From contig JACPAV010000013.1 in the NCBI GenBank assembly GCA_016180645.1, forward strand, positions 1 through 64,000: 64,000 nt of DNA, in the 5' to 3' direction. Position numbers and translations under genes: made by a program. Below, one piece after another: positions 3,351 through 51,648 of this stretch (its first letter is position 1; each line of letters starts with the position of its first letter). The stretch is from Nitrospirota bacterium (lineage in GTDB: Bacteria > JACPQY01). The notes below the pieces were generated by a model, which was not told the DNA's origin, made no database searches, and saw nothing but the letters and a program-made list of their open reading frames with translations.

Positions 3351-3483
3351 CTCGCACCTGCCCCTCGCATGTGCGGCCCCCATTCCCAGGACGGGATGGG
3401 GCCACGAGCGGATTCGGGCCTGAGTGGCCCGCTTATGGCGTGGCCGTCCTTGGGTCGCTCGACCGGGCAGGTGCGCGACGTCC

Positions 3484-4107
3484 ATGATCCGTCAATCTCT
3501 ATCAACACGCGAAGCGGCGCGGGTGCTGGAGGTCGACATCAACACGGTGAAAAACTGGGTGGACTCGGGTGAAATCCGGGCCCACAAAACGGTGGGGGGG
3601 CACCGCCGCATCCTACGCCATGACCTCATGGCGTTCATGACCGCCCGCGGGTTTCCCGTACCACAAGCGGTGCTCCCCACCCCCACCGTCTTGGTCGTGG
3701 ATGACGAACAGGAATTCCTCGAAAGCTGCGTGAAGTACCTCCGAGCCAAGGCGCCCGATCTGGAGGTGGTGTCGGCTCGGGACGGCTTCGAGGCCGGACG
3801 GCTGGCGGAGCGCCATCGTCCGCAGATGATTTTTCTCGATGTGCGCCTGCCCGGGATCGACGGCGTGGAAGTGTGCCGCCGGATTTCCTCCGATCCCCAT
3901 TTGAGATCGAGCGTGGTGATCGGGATGACCGGGTTCAGGAGCAGTCCCGAAGTTCAACGCCTTCGGGACGCCGGCGCCCGAGAGGTTCTGTTCAAACCCT
4001 TCGAACTGCGGCGCCTCATCGAAATGGTTGAAATGTTCCTGGGGCGGGAGGAGCGCAGGCGCGTTCCCGTCGCCCCACTCCGCTCCGCTGCGGGGACGGC
4101 GATTTGA
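3484..4107 (+). CDS. HTH (MerR/excisionase-like) - receiver fusion
   Basis: A 207-residue protein. Residues 4-55 (SLSTREAARVLEVDINTVKNW...GGHRRI) form an excisionase/MerR-type winged helix-turn-helix, and residues 67-190 a receiver with DDE pocket, phosphoacceptor Asp119 in MIFLDVRLPG and Lys-Pro in VLFKPF. DNA binding first and receiver second is the reverse of most response regulators. The ATG at 3484 begins exactly at the HTH domain. The last ~15 residues and stop lie in an R3 repeat shared with the beginning of the kinase gene that follows by a TGATG overlap. It is the only obvious DNA-binding output in the island. Confidence 0.82.
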   Translation: MIRQSLSTREAARVLEVDINTVKNWVDSGEIRAHKTVGGHRRILRHDLMAFMTARGFPVPQAVLPTPTVLVVDDEQEFLESCVKYLRAKAPDLEVVSARDGFEAGRLAERHRPQMIFLDVRLPGIDGVEVCRRISSDPHLRSSVVIGMTGFRSSPEVQRLRDAGAREVLFKPFELRRLIEMVEMFLGREERRRVPVAPLRSAAGTAI

Positions 4108-4128
4108 TGCGCCATGCGGATACCCGCC
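4066..4128 (-). repeat. R3 repeat spanning the regulator/kinase junction
   Basis: The stretch with CCGCTCCGCTGCGGGGACGG, CGAT and CGCCATGCGGATACC is the reverse complement of the 57-bp unit at 7241-7380, with a few changes. It supplies the C-terminus and stop of the HTH-receiver gene and the start codon and first codons of the kinase gene. Confidence 0.6.
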
Positions 4129-5356: not shown

Positions 5357-6790
5357 ATGGTGAGACCAAGATCAAAAGCGGGGCAGGAAGTCCAGGGGGC
5401 GTCTCTCGGCGAGGCCCTCAGAATCTTGATTGTCGACGATGAGGAGCCGATCCGGAAACTCCTCAACCGGGAGTTCAAACGGCGGGGTTTGGAGAGCGAA
5501 GGGGCCGGGGACGTGCCTACCGCGTTGGAACTGCTTTCAAGGAAAGATTTTGATGTCGTTCTGACCGACATTCGGATGCCGGGACGCTCCGGCGTGGATC
5601 TGCTGCGCGAGTTGAAGAGCGCCGACCCCTCCCTGGAAGTCATTCTGATGACGGGCTACGCGTCGGTGGACACCGTGGTTCAGGCTCTCCGGCTCGGGGC
5701 GGCGGATTACGTCTGCAAGCCTTTCGATGACCTGGATGAGGTGTGCAACACCGTGGTCGCCGTCGGCCGTCGTCGGCGCTCGAACGCCCGCCCGATCCGG
5801 ATCCTGGTGGTGACCGACGACTTGAACACGCGCACCTGGCTGCGACGCCTCTTTCCGGAGCGTCGGCTGTTATTGGATGTTCACACGAAACTGGATACCG
5901 TGATGGATGCGCTGGCGTCGCCCGGAAAGGAATCGGGATATCACGCCCTGGTGTTGGACGGCGCCGTGGCCGAGGGCGCTGAGCTGGGCCGGTTGCTTTC
6001 CGACATGTGCTCCAAAGGAATCCAGGTGCCGCTGACCGTGATGCTGGACGGTCAGGAGGGGCAGGCTTTTCTGACCCAAACCACGCCGGCGGGAGCGGCG
6101 GCCGCGGCTCCGGGGGCCTGGGCCGACCTGGCCACCCACGAACTGAAACTTCCGCTCGCAGCCGCGCGCGCGGCGGTGGACAATCTGAACGAGGGGGTGG
6201 CGGGTGCCGTCTCCGAAGAGGGACGGAAAATCCTGGCGACCATATCGAGCAACGTGGATCGGATGGCCCGCCTCTTGGACGGCGTGGCGGACCTCTTGGA
6301 TCTGACGAGCGGGCGACGGTCGCTCGCGATGACTCCGACCAATCTCAACCAGGTGACGGAGGATGCCTGCGGAGCTTTCGCACCCGTCGCCGCTCGAAGG
6401 GGGCTCGCCGTCGAGAAAGTCCTCCCGTCGGCCGGCCCCGTGTTCTACGGTGATTCGCAGAAGATCTCCGAGGTCCTTTTCAACTTCCTGGATAATGCGT
6501 CGCGCTTTGCCCGATCGAGAATCCACGTTTCGGTCGGAGAGGAAGGACGGATCCCCTTCTTCCGCGTGGAAGACGACGGTCCCGGCCTGCCCGAGGAAGT
6601 CCTGGAATCGTTGGAGGACCGGATGCCGCTGAAGGGAGCATCGAGCCTTTCCGGGAGGAAGCGGCTCGGCCTGCTCATCGCGAAGGCGATTGTGGATGCC
6701 CACGGTGGGCGCATCGGGGCGACCACGGGCGGGCTCGGTGGCGCGGCGATCACGGTTCAGTTTCCGCAGAAGACAGGGGGGGCAGCGTGA
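5357..6790 (+). CDS. receiver - pseudo-receiver - histidine kinase hybrid
   Basis: A 477-residue soluble hybrid. Residues 22-138 are a complete receiver (Asp71 in VVLTDIRMPG, Lys121-Pro). Residues ~146-250 look like a second, degenerate receiver (IRILVVTDDLNTRTW... LVLDGAVAEG) that lacks the usual pocket and Lys. The kinase follows: H-box ATHELKLPL with His261, then FNFLDNASRFA, VEDDGPGLPEE and a weakened G2 box (GRKRLGLLIAK). The ATG at 5357 has AGGAG nearby (AAAGGAGAGGAACG). The architecture suggests that phosphorylation of the N-terminal receiver controls the kinase. The stop overlaps the next start (GTGA). Confidence 0.85.
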   Translation: MVRPRSKAGQEVQGASLGEALRILIVDDEEPIRKLLNREFKRRGLESEGAGDVPTALELLSRKDFDVVLTDIRMPGRSGVDLLRELKSADPSLEVILMTGYASVDTVVQALRLGAADYVCKPFDDLDEVCNTVVAVGRRRRSNARPIRILVVTDDLNTRTWLRRLFPERRLLLDVHTKLDTVMDALASPGKESGYHALVLDGAVAEGAELGRLLSDMCSKGIQVPLTVMLDGQEGQAFLTQTTPAGAAAAAPGAWADLATHELKLPLAAARAAVDNLNEGVAGAVSEEGRKILATISSNVDRMARLLDGVADLLDLTSGRRSLAMTPTNLNQVTEDACGAFAPVAARRGLAVEKVLPSAGPVFYGDSQKISEVLFNFLDNASRFARSRIHVSVGEEGRIPFFRVEDDGPGLPEEVLESLEDRMPLKGASSLSGRKRLGLLIAKAIVDAHGGRIGATTGGLGGAAITVQFPQKTGGAA

Positions 6791-7992
6791 GTGAAGATTC
6801 CCACCAAGTCCGGGATCTGCCGACAGGCATTCCTGATGCCTCGGGCCGCGGCGAGATTGCTTCAGCCCGGCCTGACAGGCCCGGGCTTCGCAATGACACC
6901 GGAGTGTCGTCATTGCGAGCGGAGCGAAGCAATCCCAATGGAATCCTCAGCCGCCGGGCGCGGATGATCGTCCACGACCTGCGCAACCCCCTTTCCGTCA
7001 TCCGCGGCTATCTCCAGGTCGCGGCGCGGGAAGTCGAAAGTATCGATGCGTGTAGGGGAGCAGCTTCAGCTGCTCCCAGGCAGGGAGGACCTGAAGGTCC
7101 TCCCCTACGGCTCCCGGAGCAAGCGGCATGGGGCGGCGGGGATCCCCATGGCGAATCAAATCGCCGTCCCCCATCGCCAGGAAGGCATGGGGCCATGCAA
7201 TGTCGCCGCGCCCAGGACGGCGCGGCATGGACCATGGCCCGAAGCGGAGCGGAGCGGGACGGGGGGGGTCCGCATGGCGAGTCCGATCGCCGTCCCCGAA
7301 GCGGAGCGGAGCGGGACGGGGGGGGTCCGCATGGCGAGTCCGATCGCCGTCCCCGAAGCGGAGCGGAGCGGGACGGGGGGGCCTCCGCAGAAGAGGAGTC
7401 GCTGAGAAGTTATCTAGATGGCGCGCTCGCGGCCACGACTGAACTGGACGAGATGATTCAATCCATGCTGGATCTGGCCGTCGTCGAAGAAGGATCCTTC
7501 GAGGCGAAACGCGTCGTCCTCGATGCCGCGGATCTTGTGAAGCGAATTGAGAAACGTCTTGGGCCGTGGGTCCGGCAAGAAGCCCGGGAGTTGGCGGTCA
7601 AGCCACCTGCGGGCCCAATCCACGTCCCCGCCGACCCCGTCTATCTGGAGCGGGCCGTGAAAAATCTGATCATGCACGCCGTGAGGCGGTCTCCGGTGGG
7701 AGGGAAGGTGATCGTGGAGTGCGAAACCCGGGATGGGAGCGTGGTGTTTTCCGTTCAAGATCAAGGTCCCGCCGTTTCCATCGGATCGGAGAAAGAGTAC
7801 TTCGATCCGGGGAGCGCGGAGGAGCACCGTGAACTGGGGTGGAAGGCCGATCGTGCTTTCGCCCTGGCCTGCGTGAAGAAAGTAGCCGATGGGCACGGAG
7901 GTTCCGTCGGCATCCAGTCGGGTATCGAAGGAACGAGTTTCTTTTTGCGCCTACCGGCGGAGGGGGGACCCAATGGGAATGCCAGCAAGTGA
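6787..7992 (+). CDS. atypical histidine kinase with in-frame repeat insertions
   Basis: A 401-residue soluble kinase whose recognisable domains are split by repeat sequence. Residues ~12-52 come from an R6 repeat. HisKA helix 1 (MIVHDLRNPLSVIRGY, His63) is at 60-86. Residues ~88-203 are translated R1-core, R2 and tandem R3 repeats. HisKA helix 2 (SLRSYLDGALAATTELDEM) resumes at 205. The insertion sits where the helical hairpin turns, so folding may survive. The HATPase part is degenerate: N-box-like AVKNLIMHAV, G1-like VQDQGPAV, and instead of GTGLGL a motif GWKADRAFALACVKKVA. The kinase at 15802-16491 shares this odd motif. The gene overlaps its neighbours on both sides. Confidence 0.75.
   Translation: MSEDSHQVRDLPTGIPDASGRGEIASARPDRPGLRNDTGVSSLRAERSNPNGILSRRARMIVHDLRNPLSVIRGYLQVAAREVESIDACRGAASAAPRQGGPEGPPLRLPEQAAWGGGDPHGESNRRPPSPGRHGAMQCRRAQDGAAWTMARSGAERDGGGPHGESDRRPRSGAERDGGGPHGESDRRPRSGAERDGGASAEEESLRSYLDGALAATTELDEMIQSMLDLAVVEEGSFEAKRVVLDAADLVKRIEKRLGPWVRQEARELAVKPPAGPIHVPADPVYLERAVKNLIMHAVRRSPVGGKVIVECETRDGSVVFSVQDQGPAVSIGSEKEYFDPGSAEEHRELGWKADRAFALACVKKVADGHGGSVGIQSGIEGTSFFLRLPAEGGPNGNASK
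6853..6944 (+). repeat. R6 repeat in kinase N-terminus
   Basis: CGAGATTGCTTCAGCCC at the left and GTCATTGCGAGCGGAGCGAA with GCAATCCC at the right are inverted ends of the R6 family, also found at 12382-12526 and 25168-25325. It is read in frame, giving the residues SLRAERSNP. Confidence 0.75.
7052..7109 (+). repeat. R1 core (two hairpins) inside kinase gene
   Basis: GTAGGGGAGCAGCTTCAGCT, GCTCCC, a short spacer, then GGGAGGACC-TGAA-GGTCCTCCCCTACG: the same double-hairpin design as the inner part of R1, without its outer arms. It is read in frame. Confidence 0.75.
7110..7240 (+). repeat. R2/R3 composite repeat inside kinase gene
   Basis: Contains CATGGGGCGG, GATCCCCATGGCGAATCAAA, ATCGCCGTCCC and the CCGCGCCCAGGACGGCGCGG palindrome flanked by CATGGCCC-like ends. 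These match the composite repeats at 15603-15726, 25168-25325 and 34338-34490. It is read in frame. Confidence 0.65.
7241..7380 (+). repeat. tandem 57-bp repeat, about 2.5 copies
   Basis: Unit starts at 7241, 7298 and 7355 are exactly 57 bp apart and begin GAAGCGGAGCGGAGCGGGAC. The units are near-identical, and 57 is a multiple of 3, so each adds 19 residues (SGAERDGGGPHGESDRRPR). This is a candidate variable-number repeat inside a coding region. Confidence 0.92.
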
Positions 7993-8752
7993 TTTTTCGT
8001 ATCCGGATGCCGCGAGCGATGTCGCCCCGCGCTTCCGGGTGGCGGTGGTGGACGACGACGTTCGCATCGGGCGGCTCCTGAAGGCCTTTCTGGAAGGGCG
8101 GGGGATCGAGTGCGTGCCCCTGGCCGATGCCCCGGGGCTGTTCAAGCTGCTGACCACGGAACGGATCGATGCCGTGGTGTCAGACATCGTCATGCCTGGG
8201 ATCACGGGTCTGGAACTCCTGCGATCCGTGCGGCGTATCGCTCCGCAAGTCCCCGTCGTCCTCATCACCGGTTTTCCAAGAATGGAGTTTGTTCGGGAGG
8301 CGATGAAAGAGGGTGCGGTCGATTTTCTTCAGAAGCCGGTGGACCTGGAGGAATTGGAAAAAGCGCTCGGGGCGGCGATGGAAAGCGCAGCCAAAGCGGC
8401 GGCCGCCGAAGAGAAATCCCCGCGTAGGGGCGAGCTTGCTCGCCCGCTGTCCCGTCAGGAGAAGCAACTCGCCCGGCGGGTTCGGAAGGCGATGCGGCAA
8501 AAGGAGTGGCGGGGATGGCATTGGCTGGATCGGATGGCTGTCCCGTTCCGATCGGCCGCGGAAGAGGTTCGGCTCCACCCATGGTTCTATGTTCTCGCGA
8601 TGGGTGTCGTCCTAGCTGCCAGCATGTTGACGCTCACCGGCATGAATACCGTCGTCGGAACGGCGCGTCGGCCGGGGATGATGGAACTTCTCGAACGCGC
8701 GGTGACGGCATTGGAAGAGGACAACCGGCTGGACCGTCAGAATCCGAGGTGA
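7973..8752 (+). CDS. membrane-tethered receiver (REC-TM), first copy
   Basis: A 259-residue protein. Residues 21-135 are a receiver with pocket DDD27-29, phosphoacceptor Asp71 in AVVSDIVMPG and Lys121-Pro. A basic, probably helical linker (~137-200) contains a repeat-derived stretch (RRGELARP). One transmembrane helix follows at ~203-223 (WFYVLAMGVVLAASMLTL), then a short tail LLERAVTALEEDNRLDRQNPR. The paralogue at 17450-18139 has the same order and nearly the same tail. The ATG at 7973 follows GAGGGGGG and lies inside the end of the kinase gene (20-nt overlap), so kinase and receiver are probably partners. I know of no named family for this design. Confidence 0.8.
   Translation: MGMPASDFSYPDAASDVAPRFRVAVVDDDVRIGRLLKAFLEGRGIECVPLADAPGLFKLLTTERIDAVVSDIVMPGITGLELLRSVRRIAPQVPVVLITGFPRMEFVREAMKEGAVDFLQKPVDLEELEKALGAAMESAAKAAAAEEKSPRRGELARPLSRQEKQLARRVRKAMRQKEWRGWHWLDRMAVPFRSAAEEVRLHPWFYVLAMGVVLAASMLTLTGMNTVVGTARRPGMMELLERAVTALEEDNRLDRQNPR
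8424..8448 (+). repeat. short hairpin repeat in REC-TM linker
   Basis: TAGGGGCGAGC-TT-GCTCGCCCGC is a compact inverted repeat of the common 'TAGGGGCGAGC' type, read in frame as RRGELARP. Confidence 0.55.
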
Positions 8753-12362: not shown

Positions 12363-12381
12363 GCCGGGATGGTGCGATCTT

Positions 12382-12526
12382 GGCTGAGATTGCTTCGCTT
12401 CGCTCGCAATGACGGATGGCACGTGTCATTGCGAGGCCATGGTCCATGCCGCGCCATCCTTGGCGCGGCCACATATCATGGCCCCATGCCATCCGTGGCA
12501 AGGGGAGTCCTCGACGAAGCAATCTC
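12382..12526 (+). repeat. nested R6/R2 composite repeat
   Basis: Outer arms are R6 (GAGATTGCTTCGCTTCGCTC, GCAATGAC ... CGAAGCAATCTC). Within them is an R2 unit with CATGGTCCATGCCGCGCCAT and TGGCGCGG, then CATGGCCCCATGCCATCCG. The nesting suggests that one element inserted into another. It fills the whole gap between two large kinase genes and ends one base before the ATG at 12527. Confidence 0.75.
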
Positions 12527-15726: not shown

Positions 15727-15801
15727 CCAGATGGATGATCTCAGGGCCCAGGACTGAGTAGCCTCGTTGAGTTTTCACATCGGAATGGTTACTCTCTGTC
15801 C

Positions 15802-16491
15802 GTGCCTTTCGACGACTCGGTGATCCCTCACATTGCCCACGATCTCCAGAACCCACTCACTTCCATTCAAGGCTACGCACAGATGATTCTGATGACACAA
15901 GGGGATCAACTGCCTGCGGATGCGCACCGGAACTTAGAAACCGTCCTGCTCTCGTGCGCACAGCTCCGGCGGATGATTCTGACTTTCTCCTACCTTTCTC
16001 AGATCCAATCGGCGGGATTCGAGCTCCAATGGGCCGAAACATCGGCCGACGGCCTGGTGAACAAGGCTGTGGAGGCGATGGCGGGCTACGCCGAAATGCA
16101 AAAAAAGCGCTTGCTCACGGAAACGTCCGCCCCGAACCCGCTTCGAGTCGATGTGGTGCTGCTGGATCTGGCTCTTCAGAACGCGATTGCCAACGGCCTC
16201 GCGCGGGTGAGAGGTGGAGGGGAGGTGCGGGTCCGATCCTGCGAGAAGGCGGGAGGGGTGTGCGAGATCTCGATCGAGGAGGCCGGCCCGGTGATTTCCG
16301 CGGAATTCCGCGATGCGATGTTTGACGCGGCGCAGGTGGATCGAATCAAGCGGGCGGGACTTAAGACGGATCGTGCGCTTGGCCTCGTCCTGTTCAAGAG
16401 GGTGGCCGAGTTGCACCGCGGCTCCGTCGGCATCGAGTCGAGCGAAACGCAGACGAGAATCTGGATGTTCCTTCCGGTGAAGAGGGATTGA
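15802..16491 (+). CDS. atypical minimal histidine kinase
   Basis: A 229-residue protein made only of HisKA and a degenerate ATPase domain. HisKA begins almost at residue 1 (IPHIAHDLQNPLTSIQGYAQ, His13). The N box is reduced to LALQNAIANGLARV and the G boxes are eroded. The motif GLKTDRALGLVLFKRVAELH stands in place of GTGLGL and closely mirrors the kinase at 6787-7992. It may bind ATP weakly, or act as a phosphotransfer or adaptor protein. The start is the GTG at 15802; no in-frame ATG precedes the H-box. The next gene's ATG touches its stop. Confidence 0.78.
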   Translation: MPFDDSVIPHIAHDLQNPLTSIQGYAQMILMTQGDQLPADAHRNLETVLLSCAQLRRMILTFSYLSQIQSAGFELQWAETSADGLVNKAVEAMAGYAEMQKKRLLTETSAPNPLRVDVVLLDLALQNAIANGLARVRGGGEVRVRSCEKAGGVCEISIEEAGPVISAEFRDAMFDAAQVDRIKRAGLKTDRALGLVLFKRVAELHRGSVGIESSETQTRIWMFLPVKRD

Positions 16492-25167: not shown

Positions 25168-25325
25168 CGAGCGAGATTGCTTCGGTCGGTCGTTGCGACC
25201 TCCCCCTTGCCCAGGATGGCATGGGGCCATGCAATGTCGCCGCGCCGAGGACGGCGCGGCATGGACCATGGCCTCGCAATGACCACACCCCACCGTCATT
25301 GCGAGCGGAGCGAAGCAATCTCAAG
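25168..25325 (+). repeat. nested R6/R2 composite repeat upstream of rtcB
   Basis: R6 arms (GAGATTGCTTCGGTCGG ... GTCATTGCGAGCGGAGCGAA, GCAATCTC) enclose an R2 unit with GGATGGCATGGGGCCATGCA and the CCGCGCCGAGGACGGCGCGG palindrome. It has the same organisation as 12382-12526. It ends 10 bp before the rtcB ATG, so rtcB transcription must start in or before the element. Confidence 0.75.
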
Positions 25326-28693: not shown

Positions 28694-29788
28694 TCAGACG
28701 GGCTGAGTCTTTGCGCTTCCCTCGCGAACCGAAAGGATGTTGTTGGCGAGGAAGAGGAGGATGGCGAGGGCGTTGATGAGTCCGGCGTAGTAACGCAGGT
28801 GGGGCCAAGTGCTCAGATCCGCGAAGACTCGGAGGAGAAGGGAGAGATGCAGAAGAGCGAAGTGGGCGTAGAAGCGTGGACTGTAGGGCATGGCCTTGCC
28901 GGTGACGGCGGGGAACATGATCGGGGCGTGACCGAAGATCATCGAGAAGACAAACCCCAACAGGATCGAGTGAAGAATCGCATCATGGGATAGCCCGGCT
29001 GGGACATCACCGTAAAGCACGAGGAGCAGCCCGCCGAGGGCGAGCCAAGGGTAGCCCGACAAAATACACGTGGCGGTGAAGCGGGGCAGGCCCGTCTGCT
29101 GAATCGTTTTCCGGGCGAGGTCGTAGCGGAAGAGCCAAAGCGCAAGACCTACGAAGCCCGCACCGAGGAGTCGCGATCCGAGATTGAACAGGTGGTGGGA
29201 GATGCCCGCCGCCGCAATCAGAAATACCGCGAGAAGAGTAAACAACACATTCCGCAGCCAGGATCGGGCGGTTGAAGCGCCGCCGAATCGGGAGAGTTCA
29301 AGCCGTTCTCCGGCGATGGTGAAGACCAGGAACAGGATCCACGCATGGATGGCTTCCGCCAACGGCGCTCCATGCAGCCACAGCACGCATCCGAGCAGCC
29401 AGTGCGCCGCACCGGCAACCATCACGCCCGTGTGGAGGCCGGGTTGCCGCTTGAAGATGAAAAGCATGACCAGAACGAGTCCCCCCGACGCTGCAACGGA
29501 GAAGGCAGCCGGGAAGACCGGTGGCGCTCCACCCACGAGGGTGATCACGCCGGCGAGATTGAGGACCGGAAACACGTAGGCCCACTTCTTTCGGATGCCG
29601 ACGGCCCGTTCGAGGCCGATGAGCGTGCCGAGGAACCCGGAGAGCAGGAGGGGACCGTGGAGACTCGGCCAGTCCACGCGTGGAGCGGGCAGCTCCCAGC
29701 CGAGCCGGACCAGACCGGTCCATAGGCCGGCGAGGAGCGTAAGAAGTCCTCCCGCCATGATCGGAATTTTCAGTCGCGATGAAATCAT
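28694..29788 (-). CDS. multi-pass membrane protein, NnrS-like
   Basis: A 364-residue protein with about 10-12 hydrophobic helices. Recurrent His-containing helix motifs (LHGPLLLSGFLGTLIGLERAV, AGAAHWLLG, ISHHLFNL, FGHAPIMFPAVTGKA, YAHFALLHLSLLL) suggest haem or metal coordination in the membrane, as in NnrS proteins linked to nitric-oxide metabolism. The family call is a resemblance, not a firm match. The ATG at 29788 gives MISSRLKIPIMAGG; the longer frame upstream is a shadow of the GATase gene. It lies 11 nt after that gene in the NsrR-headed operon, which supports a role in NO stress. Confidence 0.6.
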   Translation of the reverse strand: MISSRLKIPIMAGGLLTLLAGLWTGLVRLGWELPAPRVDWPSLHGPLLLSGFLGTLIGLERAVGIRKKWAYVFPVLNLAGVITLVGGAPPVFPAAFSVAASGGLVLVMLFIFKRQPGLHTGVMVAGAAHWLLGCVLWLHGAPLAEAIHAWILFLVFTIAGERLELSRFGGASTARSWLRNVLFTLLAVFLIAAAGISHHLFNLGSRLLGAGFVGLALWLFRYDLARKTIQQTGLPRFTATCILSGYPWLALGGLLLVLYGDVPAGLSHDAILHSILLGFVFSMIFGHAPIMFPAVTGKAMPYSPRFYAHFALLHLSLLLRVFADLSTWPHLRYYAGLINALAILLFLANNILSVREGSAKTQPV

Positions 29789-29799
29789 CAGGTTCGATT

Positions 29800-30501
29800 C
29801 TACAGGAGCGAAACCCAGCGGCGGTAGACGATGTCGCCGATCGCCTGCAAAGCCGTCAGGTGTGTTTCGATGCCCTCCAGAATTCCTGCGGATGGAATTC
29901 CGGCCTCGGCCAGTTCGACCTCGAACGCGCGGGTCCATTCCCCAATCATGGGAGCCGTGACTTCCATGTGGAAAAGGAAACCGTAGGCGTTTCCGCCGTA
30001 TCGGAAAGCTTGGTGCGTCGTGAGGTCGGAGGACGCGAGTGAGACGGCCCCCTTCGGAAGCGTGAAAACGTCGCCGTGCCAGTGGAACCCCGTGAAGCTC
30101 GATGGAACGTCCATCCAGAGCGGGTCGGCGACCGCTTCGCCTGAGAGGGTCACGGGATACCATCCGATTTCCTTCTTCTTTCCTTTGCGAATGTCAGATC
30201 CAAGGGCCGAGGCGAGAAGTTGGCTCCCGAGGCAGGTGCCGAGAATCGGCTTGCGGCTCTTGAGGGCAGCCTGGATCAATCGGATTTCATCCGCCAGATG
30301 GGGGTACCGATCCTGCTCGTACACTCCCATGGGACCGCCCATGACGATCAGTCCGGATGCGTCGCCCAGATCGGCCGGCACCGGATCCCCCAGGAATACG
30401 CGCACGATCGTGGGGGATGCGGAAACGCTTTCGAGAGCGCCCGCGATTCGGCCCACCGGCTCCGGTTCAACGTGCTGAAGAACGAGGACGGATTTCGTCA
30501 T
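29800..30501 (-). CDS. class I glutamine amidotransferase-like protein
   Basis: A 233-residue GMP-synthase-like GATase. The nucleophile elbow is GTCLGSQLLA with its Cys, preceded by LIVMGGPMGVYEQD, and the catalytic His region is FHWHGDVFTLP. Such stand-alone enzymes transfer or hydrolyse amide or gamma-glutamyl groups; the substrate is unknown. ATG 30501 starts MTKSVLVLQHVEPEP, the usual family start. It is the fifth gene of the NsrR-headed operon. An R5 repeat lies just upstream, straddling the end of the hemerythrin gene. Confidence 0.8.
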   Translation of the reverse strand: MTKSVLVLQHVEPEPVGRIAGALESVSASPTIVRVFLGDPVPADLGDASGLIVMGGPMGVYEQDRYPHLADEIRLIQAALKSRKPILGTCLGSQLLASALGSDIRKGKKKEIGWYPVTLSGEAVADPLWMDVPSSFTGFHWHGDVFTLPKGAVSLASSDLTTHQAFRYGGNAYGFLFHMEVTAPMIGEWTRAFEVELAEAGIPSAGILEGIETHLTALQAIGDIVYRRWVSLL

Positions 30502-30508
30502 TCGTGCC

Positions 30509-30590
30509 CCGCACACTCCCTTCGTGATCCGGCCATCGTGGCCGGCATCAAAGGTTGGGAGTGCGGCGAGCGTCATGCCCGCCGCATGCG
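30509..30590 (+). repeat. R5 repeat, copy a
   Basis: Contains GTGATCCGGCCATCGTGGCC, GGCATCAAAGGTTGGGAGTG, CGGCGAGCGTCATGCCCGCC. The copy at 33829-33911 is nearly identical over about 75 bp. The centre CCGGCCATCGTGGCCGG is palindromic. This copy encodes the last ~12 codons (GHDARRTPNL) and stop of the hemerythrin gene. Confidence 0.85.
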
Positions 30591-37281: not shown

Positions 37282-40158
37282 ATGAGTTGGTGGGCGCTCG
37301 CCGCGTCATGCGGCCATCCTGGCCGCGGGCTGTGGACGCGAGCACGGGGAACCGTCCTGGCCCCCGCGCTCGCCGCGTCATGCGGCCATCCTGGCCGCGG
37401 GCTGTGGACGCGAGCACGGGGAACCGTCCTGGCCCCCGCGCTCATCCTTCTTCTTCTGCCGCTCGCCATCACCGCCTGCGGCAAACTGAAGAAAGAAGAT
37501 CTCAAACGTGTGGGGATCTCCGGCCGTGTGGTGGACGGCTCCCAGGATACTCCCCTCCGGCAAGCCACCGTCAAACTCTACAAGCCGGGCGACACGCAGG
37601 ATCCCTTGGATGAGACTCAATCCGGCGAAGACGGCAAGTTCTCGTTCGCAACCGCATTCCCCGGGGAATATGAGATCGTTGCATCGGTCCAAGGCTACGC
37701 GCCGGCCACGACAACCGTCGTCGTCAATCCCGGCGAGGCCTCCGAGGTCACCGTCCGCCTTTACCTGACCTCCGACAAGTTCCCCGAGTGGTCCAGCTAC
37801 ATGACCCGGAAGCTGGCGCGAGCCTTTCTATCCGCCAACGGTGAATTCTGGATCGGCACGGAGGGCGGTCTGCTCCGCTACCCCTCCAACGGTTCCCCGA
37901 TCGCGTACACCACTTCGGAAGGCCTTCCTTCGAGCGTTGTGCTCTCGCTCGCCGCCACGGACAAGCACATCTTGATCGGGACGGACAGCGGACTCGCGCG
38001 ATTCAACATCAAGACCGAGGAATGGGACGTGCTCACGAAGGAGAAGGATGGCCTGCCGGGCAATCGCATCAATGGAATCGGAATCGATCCGAAAGACAAG
38101 CGACTTTGGGTGGTGACGGACGGGGGGGCCGGCCGCCTCGAAGGACACTACTGGACCACCTATCACGCGGGAACCTCGGCGGGCACCGCCTGTTCGTCCA
38201 ACGGCCTGCCGGACAACGATGTGCGCTCGTTCGTGTTCGATGTGGACGGGCGCGCGTGGTTCGGCACGGCCAAGGGCGTGGGCGTCTTCTCGAACAACGC
38301 GTGGTGCTGGTACTCGAAAGGGAACGCGGATTCCGGGCTGCTCGATCCTTCCGTGAACGGAATGGCAATGACAGCGGCAGGCGTGGACGGCAAGACGTGG
38401 AAATGGTTTGGGACCGATCGCGGCATCAGCACCACCGATGGCTGCAAGTGGGTATCGTACAGCAGTTTTGAACCTGCCTCGGTGGAATGGCCCCCCGTGG
38501 GGGAATCCAGGTGCACCATGGCCGAACAGCTCTGCGACACGTCCACCTTGACCTTTGGGTGCACGGTGGACGGGAGCGCATGCTTCGACGACCCGGCGCC
38601 ATGCATCGAAAAGGGAGGATATTGCAGGGCCAGTTGCCCGCTGCCGGCGCCGAGTTGCGAACTGTCCGCCTCAAAATGCAATGCGCCCCCGGCCAACTGC
38701 ACCAAACCGGCCAAGGTGTGCGACAAAACCGGGCTCGCCTGTACGTCGGACGACAGCACCTGCAAACCCGCCGGAGGGAAATGCGTGGATCAGCCCGTTA
38801 AGTGCGAAGCGATCGCCACGGGCTGCTCGCTCCCCGAACGATCGTGCCTGCAAGGGGGCGCGGCGTGCGGAGCATTGGAAGGTCAGTGCGTTACCCCCGG
38901 TGTGATGTGCACCATCCCGGATCGCGGATGTGGTCTGGCGGCCACCTCCTGCACGGGGTCGAACGGCTGCCGCGTGCCGGCTCGAGAGTGCAAATACGCC
39001 GCGGCCAGGCCGTGTGCGCAAGTGTATCTCAAAGTGGATGAGGCGAAGATGCCGACCGCGGCTGCCCTCTCGATCTACCTTCCGTCTTCCAATGAAGCCT
39101 GGGTGGGAACGCCGGCCGGACTCGTTCGTTATTCGCAGGGCACCTGGGGCCACGAGATCATCAACGTGCCGCTCGGAAAGGTCTCCGGCGTCGGAAGCGA
39201 CGGGACAAGCATAATCGTCGGACATGAAACGGGACTCAGGGCCTACACGGGAACGGAGTGGAAGGATTACCCGGCTCCAGGGGGTCCGATCAGCAGCCTG
39301 ATCCGGGACGTTCTCCTGGATGCGGATGGGGCGGTGTGGGTGGCAACGGACAAGGGCGTCAGCCGGTTCAAAGCCGGCGAATGGAAGCACTTTCGCAAGG
39401 CGGAGGGGTTGCCGGACGATGATGTTCGCTCCCTGACGCTGGACTCCGAGGGCAAACTTTGGGCGGCGACCAAGATCGGCCTCGTCAAACTGGAGGGCGA
39501 AAAGTTCGCCGGTTTGCCGGACACGTTGGTCGACGAGGATGTTCGCAAGTTGGCGGGGGATGGGAATGGCGGGCTGTGGGTGGGCACGTCCAAGGGGCTT
39601 GTCTACCTCCAAAAGACCCAGGTGAAACGGATGGGCCGCAGTGAGGGTCTGCTTGGAGAAATCGTCACCTCTCTTTTTCGCGACGGCTCCGGCGCCCTTT
39701 GGGTGGCCACCGGCCCCGCCTACGATCCGGCCTGTCTCTGCTTCAACGGCGGAGGGGTGAATCGAATCGAATCGGGTAAGATCTCCGCGGCCCAGGGTCT
39801 CAAGGCCGGTTTGGTGAACGATCTCGGGGTCGATTCGCGCGGATTGTTGTGGGCGGCCACCAGCCAGGGTTTGAGCCTCTTCGATGGAGTCAACTGGAGG
39901 TCGATCCTTCCGAATTCCGCCGACAAGACGGCGGGGCCTCTCAGCGCCAGCGTCACCGCGCTGGCCTTCGAACCGAGCGGCAAAGCATGGGTGGGAACGG
40001 ACAAAGGACTGAGTTCAACCGATGATCCCTCGGGGAAGTGGACCCATTTTGCAACGAAAGATGGACTCGGTGACGTGCGGGTGACCGCTCTCGCCGTACG
40101 CGAGAAGGAAATCTGGATCGGCACGAAGAACGGCCTTTCCGTCTACCGCCCCCAATAG
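37282..40158 (+). CDS. large lipoprotein: carboxypeptidase-regulatory-like domain, beta-propeller and Cys-rich insert
   Basis: A 958-residue lipoprotein (lipobox LAITACGK). Residues ~75-155 are a carboxypeptidase-regulatory-like beta sandwich (ISGRVVDGSQDTPLRQATVKLY). Residues ~170-390 and 590-955 are repeated propeller blades of the two-component-regulator type (NEFWIGTEGGLLRY, GRAWFGTAKGVGVF, LWAATKIGLVKLEG, WVGTDKGLSSTD). Between the halves, residues ~410-578 are an extremely Cys-rich insert with no repeat period I could fix. The signal region holds a 72-bp tandem duplication (37294-37437). No kinase or DNA-binding part follows the propeller, so it is probably a surface binding or structural protein. 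Confidence 0.78.
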   Translation: MSWWALAASCGHPGRGLWTRARGTVLAPALAASCGHPGRGLWTRARGTVLAPALILLLLPLAITACGKLKKEDLKRVGISGRVVDGSQDTPLRQATVKLYKPGDTQDPLDETQSGEDGKFSFATAFPGEYEIVASVQGYAPATTTVVVNPGEASEVTVRLYLTSDKFPEWSSYMTRKLARAFLSANGEFWIGTEGGLLRYPSNGSPIAYTTSEGLPSSVVLSLAATDKHILIGTDSGLARFNIKTEEWDVLTKEKDGLPGNRINGIGIDPKDKRLWVVTDGGAGRLEGHYWTTYHAGTSAGTACSSNGLPDNDVRSFVFDVDGRAWFGTAKGVGVFSNNAWCWYSKGNADSGLLDPSVNGMAMTAAGVDGKTWKWFGTDRGISTTDGCKWVSYSSFEPASVEWPPVGESRCTMAEQLCDTSTLTFGCTVDGSACFDDPAPCIEKGGYCRASCPLPAPSCELSASKCNAPPANCTKPAKVCDKTGLACTSDDSTCKPAGGKCVDQPVKCEAIATGCSLPERSCLQGGAACGALEGQCVTPGVMCTIPDRGCGLAATSCTGSNGCRVPARECKYAAARPCAQVYLKVDEAKMPTAAALSIYLPSSNEAWVGTPAGLVRYSQGTWGHEIINVPLGKVSGVGSDGTSIIVGHETGLRAYTGTEWKDYPAPGGPISSLIRDVLLDADGAVWVATDKGVSRFKAGEWKHFRKAEGLPDDDVRSLTLDSEGKLWAATKIGLVKLEGEKFAGLPDTLVDEDVRKLAGDGNGGLWVGTSKGLVYLQKTQVKRMGRSEGLLGEIVTSLFRDGSGALWVATGPAYDPACLCFNGGGVNRIESGKISAAQGLKAGLVNDLGVDSRGLLWAATSQGLSLFDGVNWRSILPNSADKTAGPLSASVTALAFEPSGKAWVGTDKGLSSTDDPSGKWTHFATKDGLGDVRVTALAVREKEIWIGTKNGLSVYRPQ
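37294..37437 (+). repeat. 72-bp tandem duplication in a signal-peptide coding region
   Basis: Two perfect copies starting at 37294 and 37366 (GCGCTCGCCGCGTCATGCGG...). 72 is a multiple of 3, so the N-terminus gains 24 residues (ALAASCGHPGRGLWTRARGT...). The unit carries the palindromic core CCGCGTCATGCGG/CCATCCTGG, related to R2. Confidence 0.93.
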
Positions 40159-49769: not shown

Positions 49770-51648
49770 CCGTGCTGAGACCGGGGAGGCGGCGCTCCAC
49801 CCGTTTCAGGTCATCTGCAATGTTGTCCAGCGCGGCCTTAACCACCTCGAAGGTCACGTGCTTGATGCCGGTCTTCTCGGCGTGGCTTTCCACGGCCTCC
49901 TTGATCCGTTTCCGAAGGAATCCCTCCGGGTAGGCCTTGATCGCCTCGAACGCATCATCGGTCCACTTGCACTGGTACCCGCCGAGCAGATCCCCGAACC
50001 CTTCCTCCCTGAACATCTCCTCAACAAACTCTTTAGGTATGATGGATAACTCTCTGATTCTTGCATTTTTCTCTATGCGAGCGCGGAGTCGGCGCTTGGT
50101 GTACCCCTGCGGGGCCTTCGCGAGGGTATTCCATGCTTCATAGGACCATCGCATCCGGGCGCCGTCAAAGGTTTCCTCCACCTGCGGTTCACCCTGGCCC
50201 AGGGCGAGTGCTTCCAGTGCCTCCTTGTCCAGCGGACCGAACTCCTTCGCGGAACAGACGGGGCATTGAACGGGAGATTCCATTTTCGACACGTATCCGC
50301 AGTTCGCGCAGACTTGGAGGCTGACCTTGCCTGTGGCGACGGCTTGGTAGACCATCTTGACCGCTGCATCCGCCAGCATCCGGGCCGCCTGTTCCGGAAA
50401 CATCTGTCCCATCGCCTTGTTGATGACGCTGTCCGTAATGACCGTGTGGCCCATTTCGAAAGCGTATCGGGCCACCACCATGCGGATCAGGTTCCGGCGC
50501 ATTTCAGGCACACGCTCGAGCCGCTTTTCGGCCTCCGGCGACCACGTGAGGTACTGTTTGGTGCGCAGGTCCAGCGGCGGAAGGTATTTCTGCGTGCTCA
50601 CGAAGACGTTGCAGGGGGCCATCCGCAGAAGGTTTTCCGTATTGTTCCCGATGTCGAGATCCTCTCCGCCGTGGTAGCCGACCTTGCCCAGAACGAGGAG
50701 CCAGGGATTGGACTCTTTCGCGTATTTCAGAATTTTCGGGTAAGCCTTGCCGTCGAGGAGCGTGGTTTTGAGCGTCACGCCCTTTTCCTGGGCGACCTCC
50801 TTCGCCACCTGGAGATGCGTTTGATAGATCCGTCCCAGCCCGGTGTCGATGATTTCTTCATGGAGTTTTTCCTGTTCCTTGAAACGGAAGACCTTCGCGC
50901 CTTCTTCCGACAGGACCTTGGAAATCATGTGGAAGAGAACGTAGTGAAGATAGGGATCGTACACCGCGACGGCCTCGACTTCCTTGTTGAACACCTCGGC
51001 GAGTTTGAAGGCGGTCAGGAGTGCCGCGAAAGAATGAGGAGAACCGTCGATGCCGACGAGGATTCGACGCCCATGGCCGTTGGCATGCGCGCCTTCCCGC
51101 GTCGCTTCGCTCCCGGGACGGCGAAAGGATTCGTTATCCGGAATGACGCCGCCTCCCTCCGTTTCCCGCACGAGGAGGAGATCCGCCTGAGTCCGCCGCG
51201 CGACGCGTTCGCACACGCTTCCGATCATGCTGTCCTTCGTGGCGCCCATGCCGAGCGTGCCCATGACAACGAGGTCGTATTGACTCTCGCGGATGTCCTT
51301 GACGAGGGAGCGCCAGTGCAGTCCGTCGATGATCTTGCCCGAGTAGGGCACCGATTCCTTCTCACACAGGAGCTTGACTTGGTCGAGGTAGGAATCGGAG
51401 ATGAGCCGGAGGCCCATGGTGATGAGCGTGTCGTGCAATTTCCTCTGCCGCTCCATCTCCTTCTCGTTCAGGAACTCCTCCGGCAAGGTGTATTCCATCT
51501 GGCGGAAGCGGACATCATGCAGGGCGGCGGCATAAACGTGAGAACCGACCACCGTGGCGCCGGTACCCTTGGCGATCCGAACCGCCATGTGCGCGGCGGC
51601 CATCGAATGGTCGCTCTGGTCGTGAGGAACGCAGATATTACGCCACAT
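49702..51648 (-). CDS. double universal-stress-protein fused to PCP_red repeats and a zinc ribbon
   Basis: A 648-residue multidomain protein. Usp1 spans ~1-160 (NICVPHDQSDHSMAAAHMA, DLVVMGTLGMGATKDSMIGS) and Usp2 ~193-352 (RRILVGIDGSPHSFAALLTA, LVLGKVGYHGGEDLDIGNNT); Usp1 keeps the GxGxxKxxxxGS-type ATP loop. A PCP_red-like domain starts at Trp369 (WSPEAEKRLERVPEMRRNLI). A zinc ribbon follows (Cys447/450 and 462/465), then two more PCP_red-like units from Trp501 and Trp562. The role is unknown. Shared PCP_red domains and gene overlap tie it to the radical SAM gene downstream, suggesting a common tetrapyrrole or redox-protein partner. Confidence 0.85.
   Translation of the reverse strand: MWRNICVPHDQSDHSMAAAHMAVRIAKGTGATVVGSHVYAAALHDVRFRQMEYTLPEEFLNEKEMERQRKLHDTLITMGLRLISDSYLDQVKLLCEKESVPYSGKIIDGLHWRSLVKDIRESQYDLVVMGTLGMGATKDSMIGSVCERVARRTQADLLLVRETEGGGVIPDNESFRRPGSEATREGAHANGHGRRILVGIDGSPHSFAALLTAFKLAEVFNKEVEAVAVYDPYLHYVLFHMISKVLSEEGAKVFRFKEQEKLHEEIIDTGLGRIYQTHLQVAKEVAQEKGVTLKTTLLDGKAYPKILKYAKESNPWLLVLGKVGYHGGEDLDIGNNTENLLRMAPCNVFVSTQKYLPPLDLRTKQYLTWSPEAEKRLERVPEMRRNLIRMVVARYAFEMGHTVITDSVINKAMGQMFPEQAARMLADAAVKMVYQAVATGKVSLQVCANCGYVSKMESPVQCPVCSAKEFGPLDKEALEALALGQGEPQVEETFDGARMRWSYEAWNTLAKAPQGYTKRRLRARIEKNARIRELSIIPKEFVEEMFREEGFGDLLGGYQCKWTDDAFEAIKAYPEGFLRKRIKEAVESHAEKTGIKHVTFEVVKAALDNIADDLKRVERRLPGLSTGETSGIGELPRRSEDPGTENPE

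Follow-up and report, generated by a model that had tools for sequence, protein, structure and literature searches.

The closest described systems are the REPs and the Rickettsia palindromic elements (RPEs). GTAG and CGTC REPs were defined by Di Nocera et al., who found some of them in frame inside genes, with REP clusters encoding 43–82 residues, and who suggested that in-gene REPs in loops and linkers are neutral (PMC3733652). RPEs are short palindromic repeats, about 150 bp long according to a review (PMC10969869), that occur in frame in unrelated protein genes, encode a conserved peptide and are apparently tolerated (PMC10969869, PMC3733652). In-frame palindromic elements have long been known as a curiosity in Rickettsia and in a small number of other genomes. 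Here we describe a histidine kinase gene whose HisKA domain is interrupted in frame by dispersed repeats, together with one of these repeat families, R3, which resides largely within genes.

The kinase gene lies in a window of 64,000 nucleotides on contig 13 of a 65-contig, 4.7 Mb assembly; the coordinates below are window positions on the forward strand unless stated otherwise. The ORF (6787..7992) encodes 401 aa without a sensor domain, shows no stop or frameshift along its whole length and opens with a GTG overlapping the stop of the upstream gene (GTGA); the gene caller used here proposed an alternative start at 7234. Its 3' end is overlapped by the gene of a partner response regulator (7973..8752) with a receiver domain and a C-terminal hydrophobic segment. 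Pfam placed both HisKA, including the H-box histidine, and HATPase_c above cut-off. On the full-length protein HisKA profile positions 6–30 matched residues 58–82 and HATPase_c matched residues 283–392, and a query without the insert gave a single unbroken HisKA match (profile 6–65, E 9.6e-12). Helix 1 with the intact H-box HDLRNPL (6964..7047; Pfam, alignment, predicted structure) and helix 2 (7384..7500; Pfam without the insert, alignment, predicted structure) are separated by about 330 bp, from 7050 to about 7380, and alignment with five other kinases of the window placed the extra residues exactly at the interhelix turn. The sequence-only reading had described about 115 residues of stop-free, in-frame repeats in this hairpin; the split and then restored HisKA match and the open 401-aa ORF bear out a large in-frame insert, whose size we correct to about 110 residues (roughly 88–199). 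Codon bias was gene-like on either side of the insert and absent within it. Rfam and tRNA scans gave no matches.

The insert begins with R1 (7050..7111), a pair of inverted GTAG-tagged REPs with an RNA fold of −42 kcal/mol. Repeat comparison identified a partial R3 unit (7132..7171) and the palindromic repeat R2 (7167..7239). These are followed by a tandem array of R3 (7238..7389), encoding GGPHGESDRRPRSGAERDG, for which TRF gave 97% matches, a period of 57 bp (19 codons) and 2.6 copies, a copy number that may be wrong, as the assembly is fragmented and apparently of metagenome type. The 57-bp array had been recognised from the letters of the window and is confirmed here, and all three constituents, R1, R2 and R3, proved to be dispersed repeats that recur many times in the source genome. 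The array copies agree with one another at 97–100%, and R1 shares 97% identity with copies at other places in the genome, so the insertion is probably recent.

The preserved frame had been taken as a sign of selection for read-through. However, the insert is open in two of its three forward frames and in four of all six, and a quarter of the frames are open in random 328-bp stretches of the source genome, so the argument from openness fails. The overlap with the partner gene and the genome-wide use of one R3 frame, described below, are compatible with selection for read-through, and the latter points in a similar direction. The encoded peptide is of low complexity, with 5% hydrophobic residues.

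R1 and R2 were almost always intergenic in 0.85 Mb of contig sequence. Exceptions inside genes were the kinase itself, Tgt, with an R2 copy towards its N-terminus, and a protein of 2281 residues, with a GTAG dimer. The earlier description of the repeats as intergenic in type therefore holds for R1 and R2; it does not hold for R3, which is largely gene-resident. R1 has the properties of GTAG REPs: a tag followed by a hairpin, a high copy number, mostly intergenic positions and inverted dimers. GTAG hairpins were over-represented (149 vs 12–57 for four other tags), with 126 of the 149 outside called genes, and seven matches to Y1-type transposases were found in the source genome. A cluster of several R1-like GTAG hairpins was also seen beyond the window, near the end of contig 13 (88708–88976 of the contig). 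Copies of R2 also occur in G001, a groundwater MAG and the sole family-level relative compared, where R2 was the only repeat matched in a contig search.

Repeats were likewise detected elsewhere in the kinase and its partner. RA, a palindromic repeat with a core of CGTC type (CGTCATTGCGAGCGGAGCGAAGCAATC), was located by repeat comparison in the leader at the kinase N-terminus (6884..6944), and further copies lie at 12378–12438 and 25270–25325. The RA core CGTCATTGCGAG...GCAATC is present, the likeness to CGTC REPs, for which a CGTC tag, a stem of 8–9 bp and a loop of 4–5 nt are expected, being one of core sequence only, and CGTC hairpins were not above background in a genome-wide hairpin count. 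RB, a single GTAG-tagged REP (GTAGGGGCGAGCTTGCTCGCCC), is read in frame as RRGELARP within the response-regulator linker (8424..8445); most in-gene matches to the RB regular expression were rejected as chance matches. With repeats in the hairpin, in the kinase N-terminus and in the regulator, no fewer than three separate insertions have occurred in this gene pair. Elsewhere in the window we observed a perfect 72-bp tandem duplication (37294–37443), with a unit related to the repeats found at 30516 and 33838.

R3 behaved differently from R1 and R2. A census with a home-made codon score, covering about 0.85 Mb and the stretches around further R3 matches, found 20 in-frame copies inside genes besides the kinase, each flanked on either side by sequence with gene-like codon use in a single, shared open frame. 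The hosts include Tgt, an SDR, DnaJ, a sigma-54 activator, an MmgE/PrpD protein and a universal stress protein. Pfam domains continue across R3 in the SDR, in the MmgE/PrpD protein and in the AAA+ domain of the sigma-54 activator; in Tgt the element lies within the domain, and in DnaJ and the universal stress protein it lies in linkers (51093..51150, reverse strand, in frame, for the latter). The sigma-54 activator (contig C40, about 29455–30175) carries two R3 copies, one of which lies within the AAA+ domain, after the Walker A helix and ahead of the following strand. Repeat comparison also located a copy at the 3' end of the gene at 3424–4107, where it encodes the final residues (4071..4128, reverse strand).

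The in-gene copies of R3 were not distributed evenly over the reading frames. One frame, GGPHGDSxRRPRSGAEG, was used by 13 of the 20, and the kinase uses the same one; the binomial probability of 13 of 20 copies in one of six frames is about 1e-5. Of 60 copies, between 28 and 57 were open in any given one of the six frames, and the preference is for this reason unlikely to have arisen by chance. Selection against the more hydrophobic frames may account for it. R3 thus occurs in frame in many unrelated genes and with a preferred frame, as RPE-like elements do. We suggest tentatively, as an idea we would not ourselves favour outright, that R3 is mobile and has adapted to life inside genes. A frame-neutral, nearly stop-free 57-bp unit whose preferred frame yields a hydrophilic, disordered peptide could spread through conserved enzymes, and amplify in tandem, without killing the host gene.

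An empty site for R3 was found in the queuine tRNA-ribosyltransferase Tgt, the one clear case obtained. Tgt of the source genome contains an in-frame R2 near its N-terminus (C2:50900-50973) and an in-frame R3 before the DQALFGIVQGG motif (C2:51471-51527). The Tgt of G001 (72% identity) has a gap of exactly 19 residues, or 57 bp, at the R3 site and one of 34 residues around R2. The 19-residue gap gives an R3 unit of 57 bp, which matches the period of the kinase array. A CoA-activase homologue of 35% identity showed a 20-residue gap at the second R3, which is suggestive only as an empty site, and glucan phosphorylase was rejected as a candidate, as G001 had no usable orthologue. No kinase orthologue, with or without the insert, was detected in G001 or in 58 more distant genomes, and hence there is no direct empty site for the kinase; the best matches in these genomes were kinases of about 20–35% identity. 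The best G001 matches of the HDOD gene neighbouring the kinase reached about 30%.

A single-sequence AlphaFold model of the kinase was poor (48.7), and we used an AlphaFold2 model built with the five other kinases of the window. In this model of the insert-bearing protein the two helices (residues 52–95 and 201–235) and the HATPase fold were formed with a pLDDT of about 80–90 over most of their length. The insert had a pLDDT of about 32–56, nearly all of residues 106–193 falling below 50, and is predicted to be a disordered loop between folded helices. Foldseek matched the model to CusS, HK853, DivL and RetS. The sequence-only reading had offered two options, a huge loop tolerated at the helical turn or a protein turned into something new. 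The exact position at the turn, the predicted disorder and the folded helices and catalytic domain make the first the better one; the second gained no support.

The catalytic domain itself (7600..7989; Pfam, alignment) looks degenerate. In the alignment none of the nucleotide-binding boxes N, G1 and G2 is intact: histidine replaces the second asparagine of the N box (NLIMHAV), G1 reads DQGPAV and G2 lacks a GxGLGL-type motif (WKADRAFALA). These boxes make an active kinase doubtful and a pseudokinase or modulator probable; our working view, from the motifs, is that of a pseudokinase with a usable phospho-acceptor histidine. The nearest intragenomic paralogue, a kinase without the insert (15739..16488; 30% identity), has similarly odd G1 and G2 boxes, so their degeneracy is in part older than the insert. 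Both kinases are sensor-less and each is followed by a response regulator; the two possibly form one pseudokinase subfamily.

Taken together, we consider it quite probable that RPE/REP-like elements were stacked recently in this hairpin and are tolerated at the solvent-exposed turn of a probable pseudokinase. Small non-autonomous palindromic elements, presumably mobile, would have landed in the turn that links both DHp helices, where R3 would have multiplied in tandem. The frame would have stayed open because GC-rich elements of this kind are largely free of stops and an R3 unit adds 19 codons. The gene, if it is expressed, would now encode a disordered loop of about 110 residues. Such a loop would be tolerated, and may be neutral, because it leaves the helix bundle and the catalytic fold able to form, and the kinase would be under weaker constraint than an active one. 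R3 would be a family whose members reside in frame within genes, much as RPEs do. Against this reading, the kinase gene may be at an early stage of decay or may start further downstream than 6787.

It is unlikely, in our judgement, that the kinase is already a pseudogene or is becoming one, with the elements inserted into an unselected gene whose frame is open only since the insert is recent and stop-poor. The degenerate ATPase boxes, with the N-box Asn-to-His change, would fit this explanation, as would the recent, near-identical repeats, the four open frames of six and the lack of an orthologue in G001. Decay is opposed by an intact H-box, a HATPase fold that is well scored and well predicted, gene-like codon use flanking the insert on both sides and an ORF free of stops and frameshifts that the downstream gene overlaps, and the box degeneracy shared with the uninserted paralogue partly predates the insert. 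We give very little credence to a loop that is functional and selected, altering the cis/trans geometry, the partner choice or the localisation of the kinase. A passage of PMC5956149, citing Ashenberg 2013, reports that the DHp loop sets cis or trans autophosphorylation, the insert lies exactly at that turn and R3 is read there in the peptide frame that other genes use as well; yet the same elements are found in unrelated proteins and in linkers, the loop is hydrophobic-poor, low in complexity and disordered in the model, and the near-identity of the array copies leaves little time for tuning. Least probable of all is an assembly chimera, in which short-read assembly joined two loci via shared repeats, as a fragmented assembly with many dispersed repeats and a perfect tandem array might allow, but both halves make one complete in-frame HisKA domain, the operon context is coherent and R3 inserted independently, with an empty site, in Tgt.

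The insertion of palindromic elements inside genes is a mechanism class already known, and the kinase is a large case of it. What appears to be new is the R3 family, which looks like a new one, its host lineage and the size of the composite insert; a partial literature search found no earlier report of R3 or of the phenomenon in this lineage. A 57-bp family that occupies conserved enzymes, Tgt among them, and a relative with the empty site make insertion tolerance and frame preference measurable, and the kinase shows how much a DHp hairpin can carry. Like RPEs, R3 is in frame in unrelated genes, encodes a conserved peptide and is apparently tolerated, a likeness at the level of description; it differs in its length (57 bp vs about 150 bp), in that the relative compared is a groundwater MAG and not an obligate intracellular bacterium, and in that the kinase insert stacks three element families, one of them tandemly repeated. 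R1, an inverted hairpin pair, and RB, a single hairpin, resemble GTAG REPs in being mostly intergenic with some copies in genes and in the presence of Y1-type transposase genes in the source genome, whereas R2 and R3 carry no GTAG or CGTC tag and the kinase insert of about 110 residues from mixed families exceeds the published 43–82 residues (PMC3733652). The kinase also resembles DivL, both in the fold match of its model and in its degenerate ATP-binding motifs. DivL lacks the usual phosphorylatable histidine, whereas the kinase described here has kept its H-box histidine.
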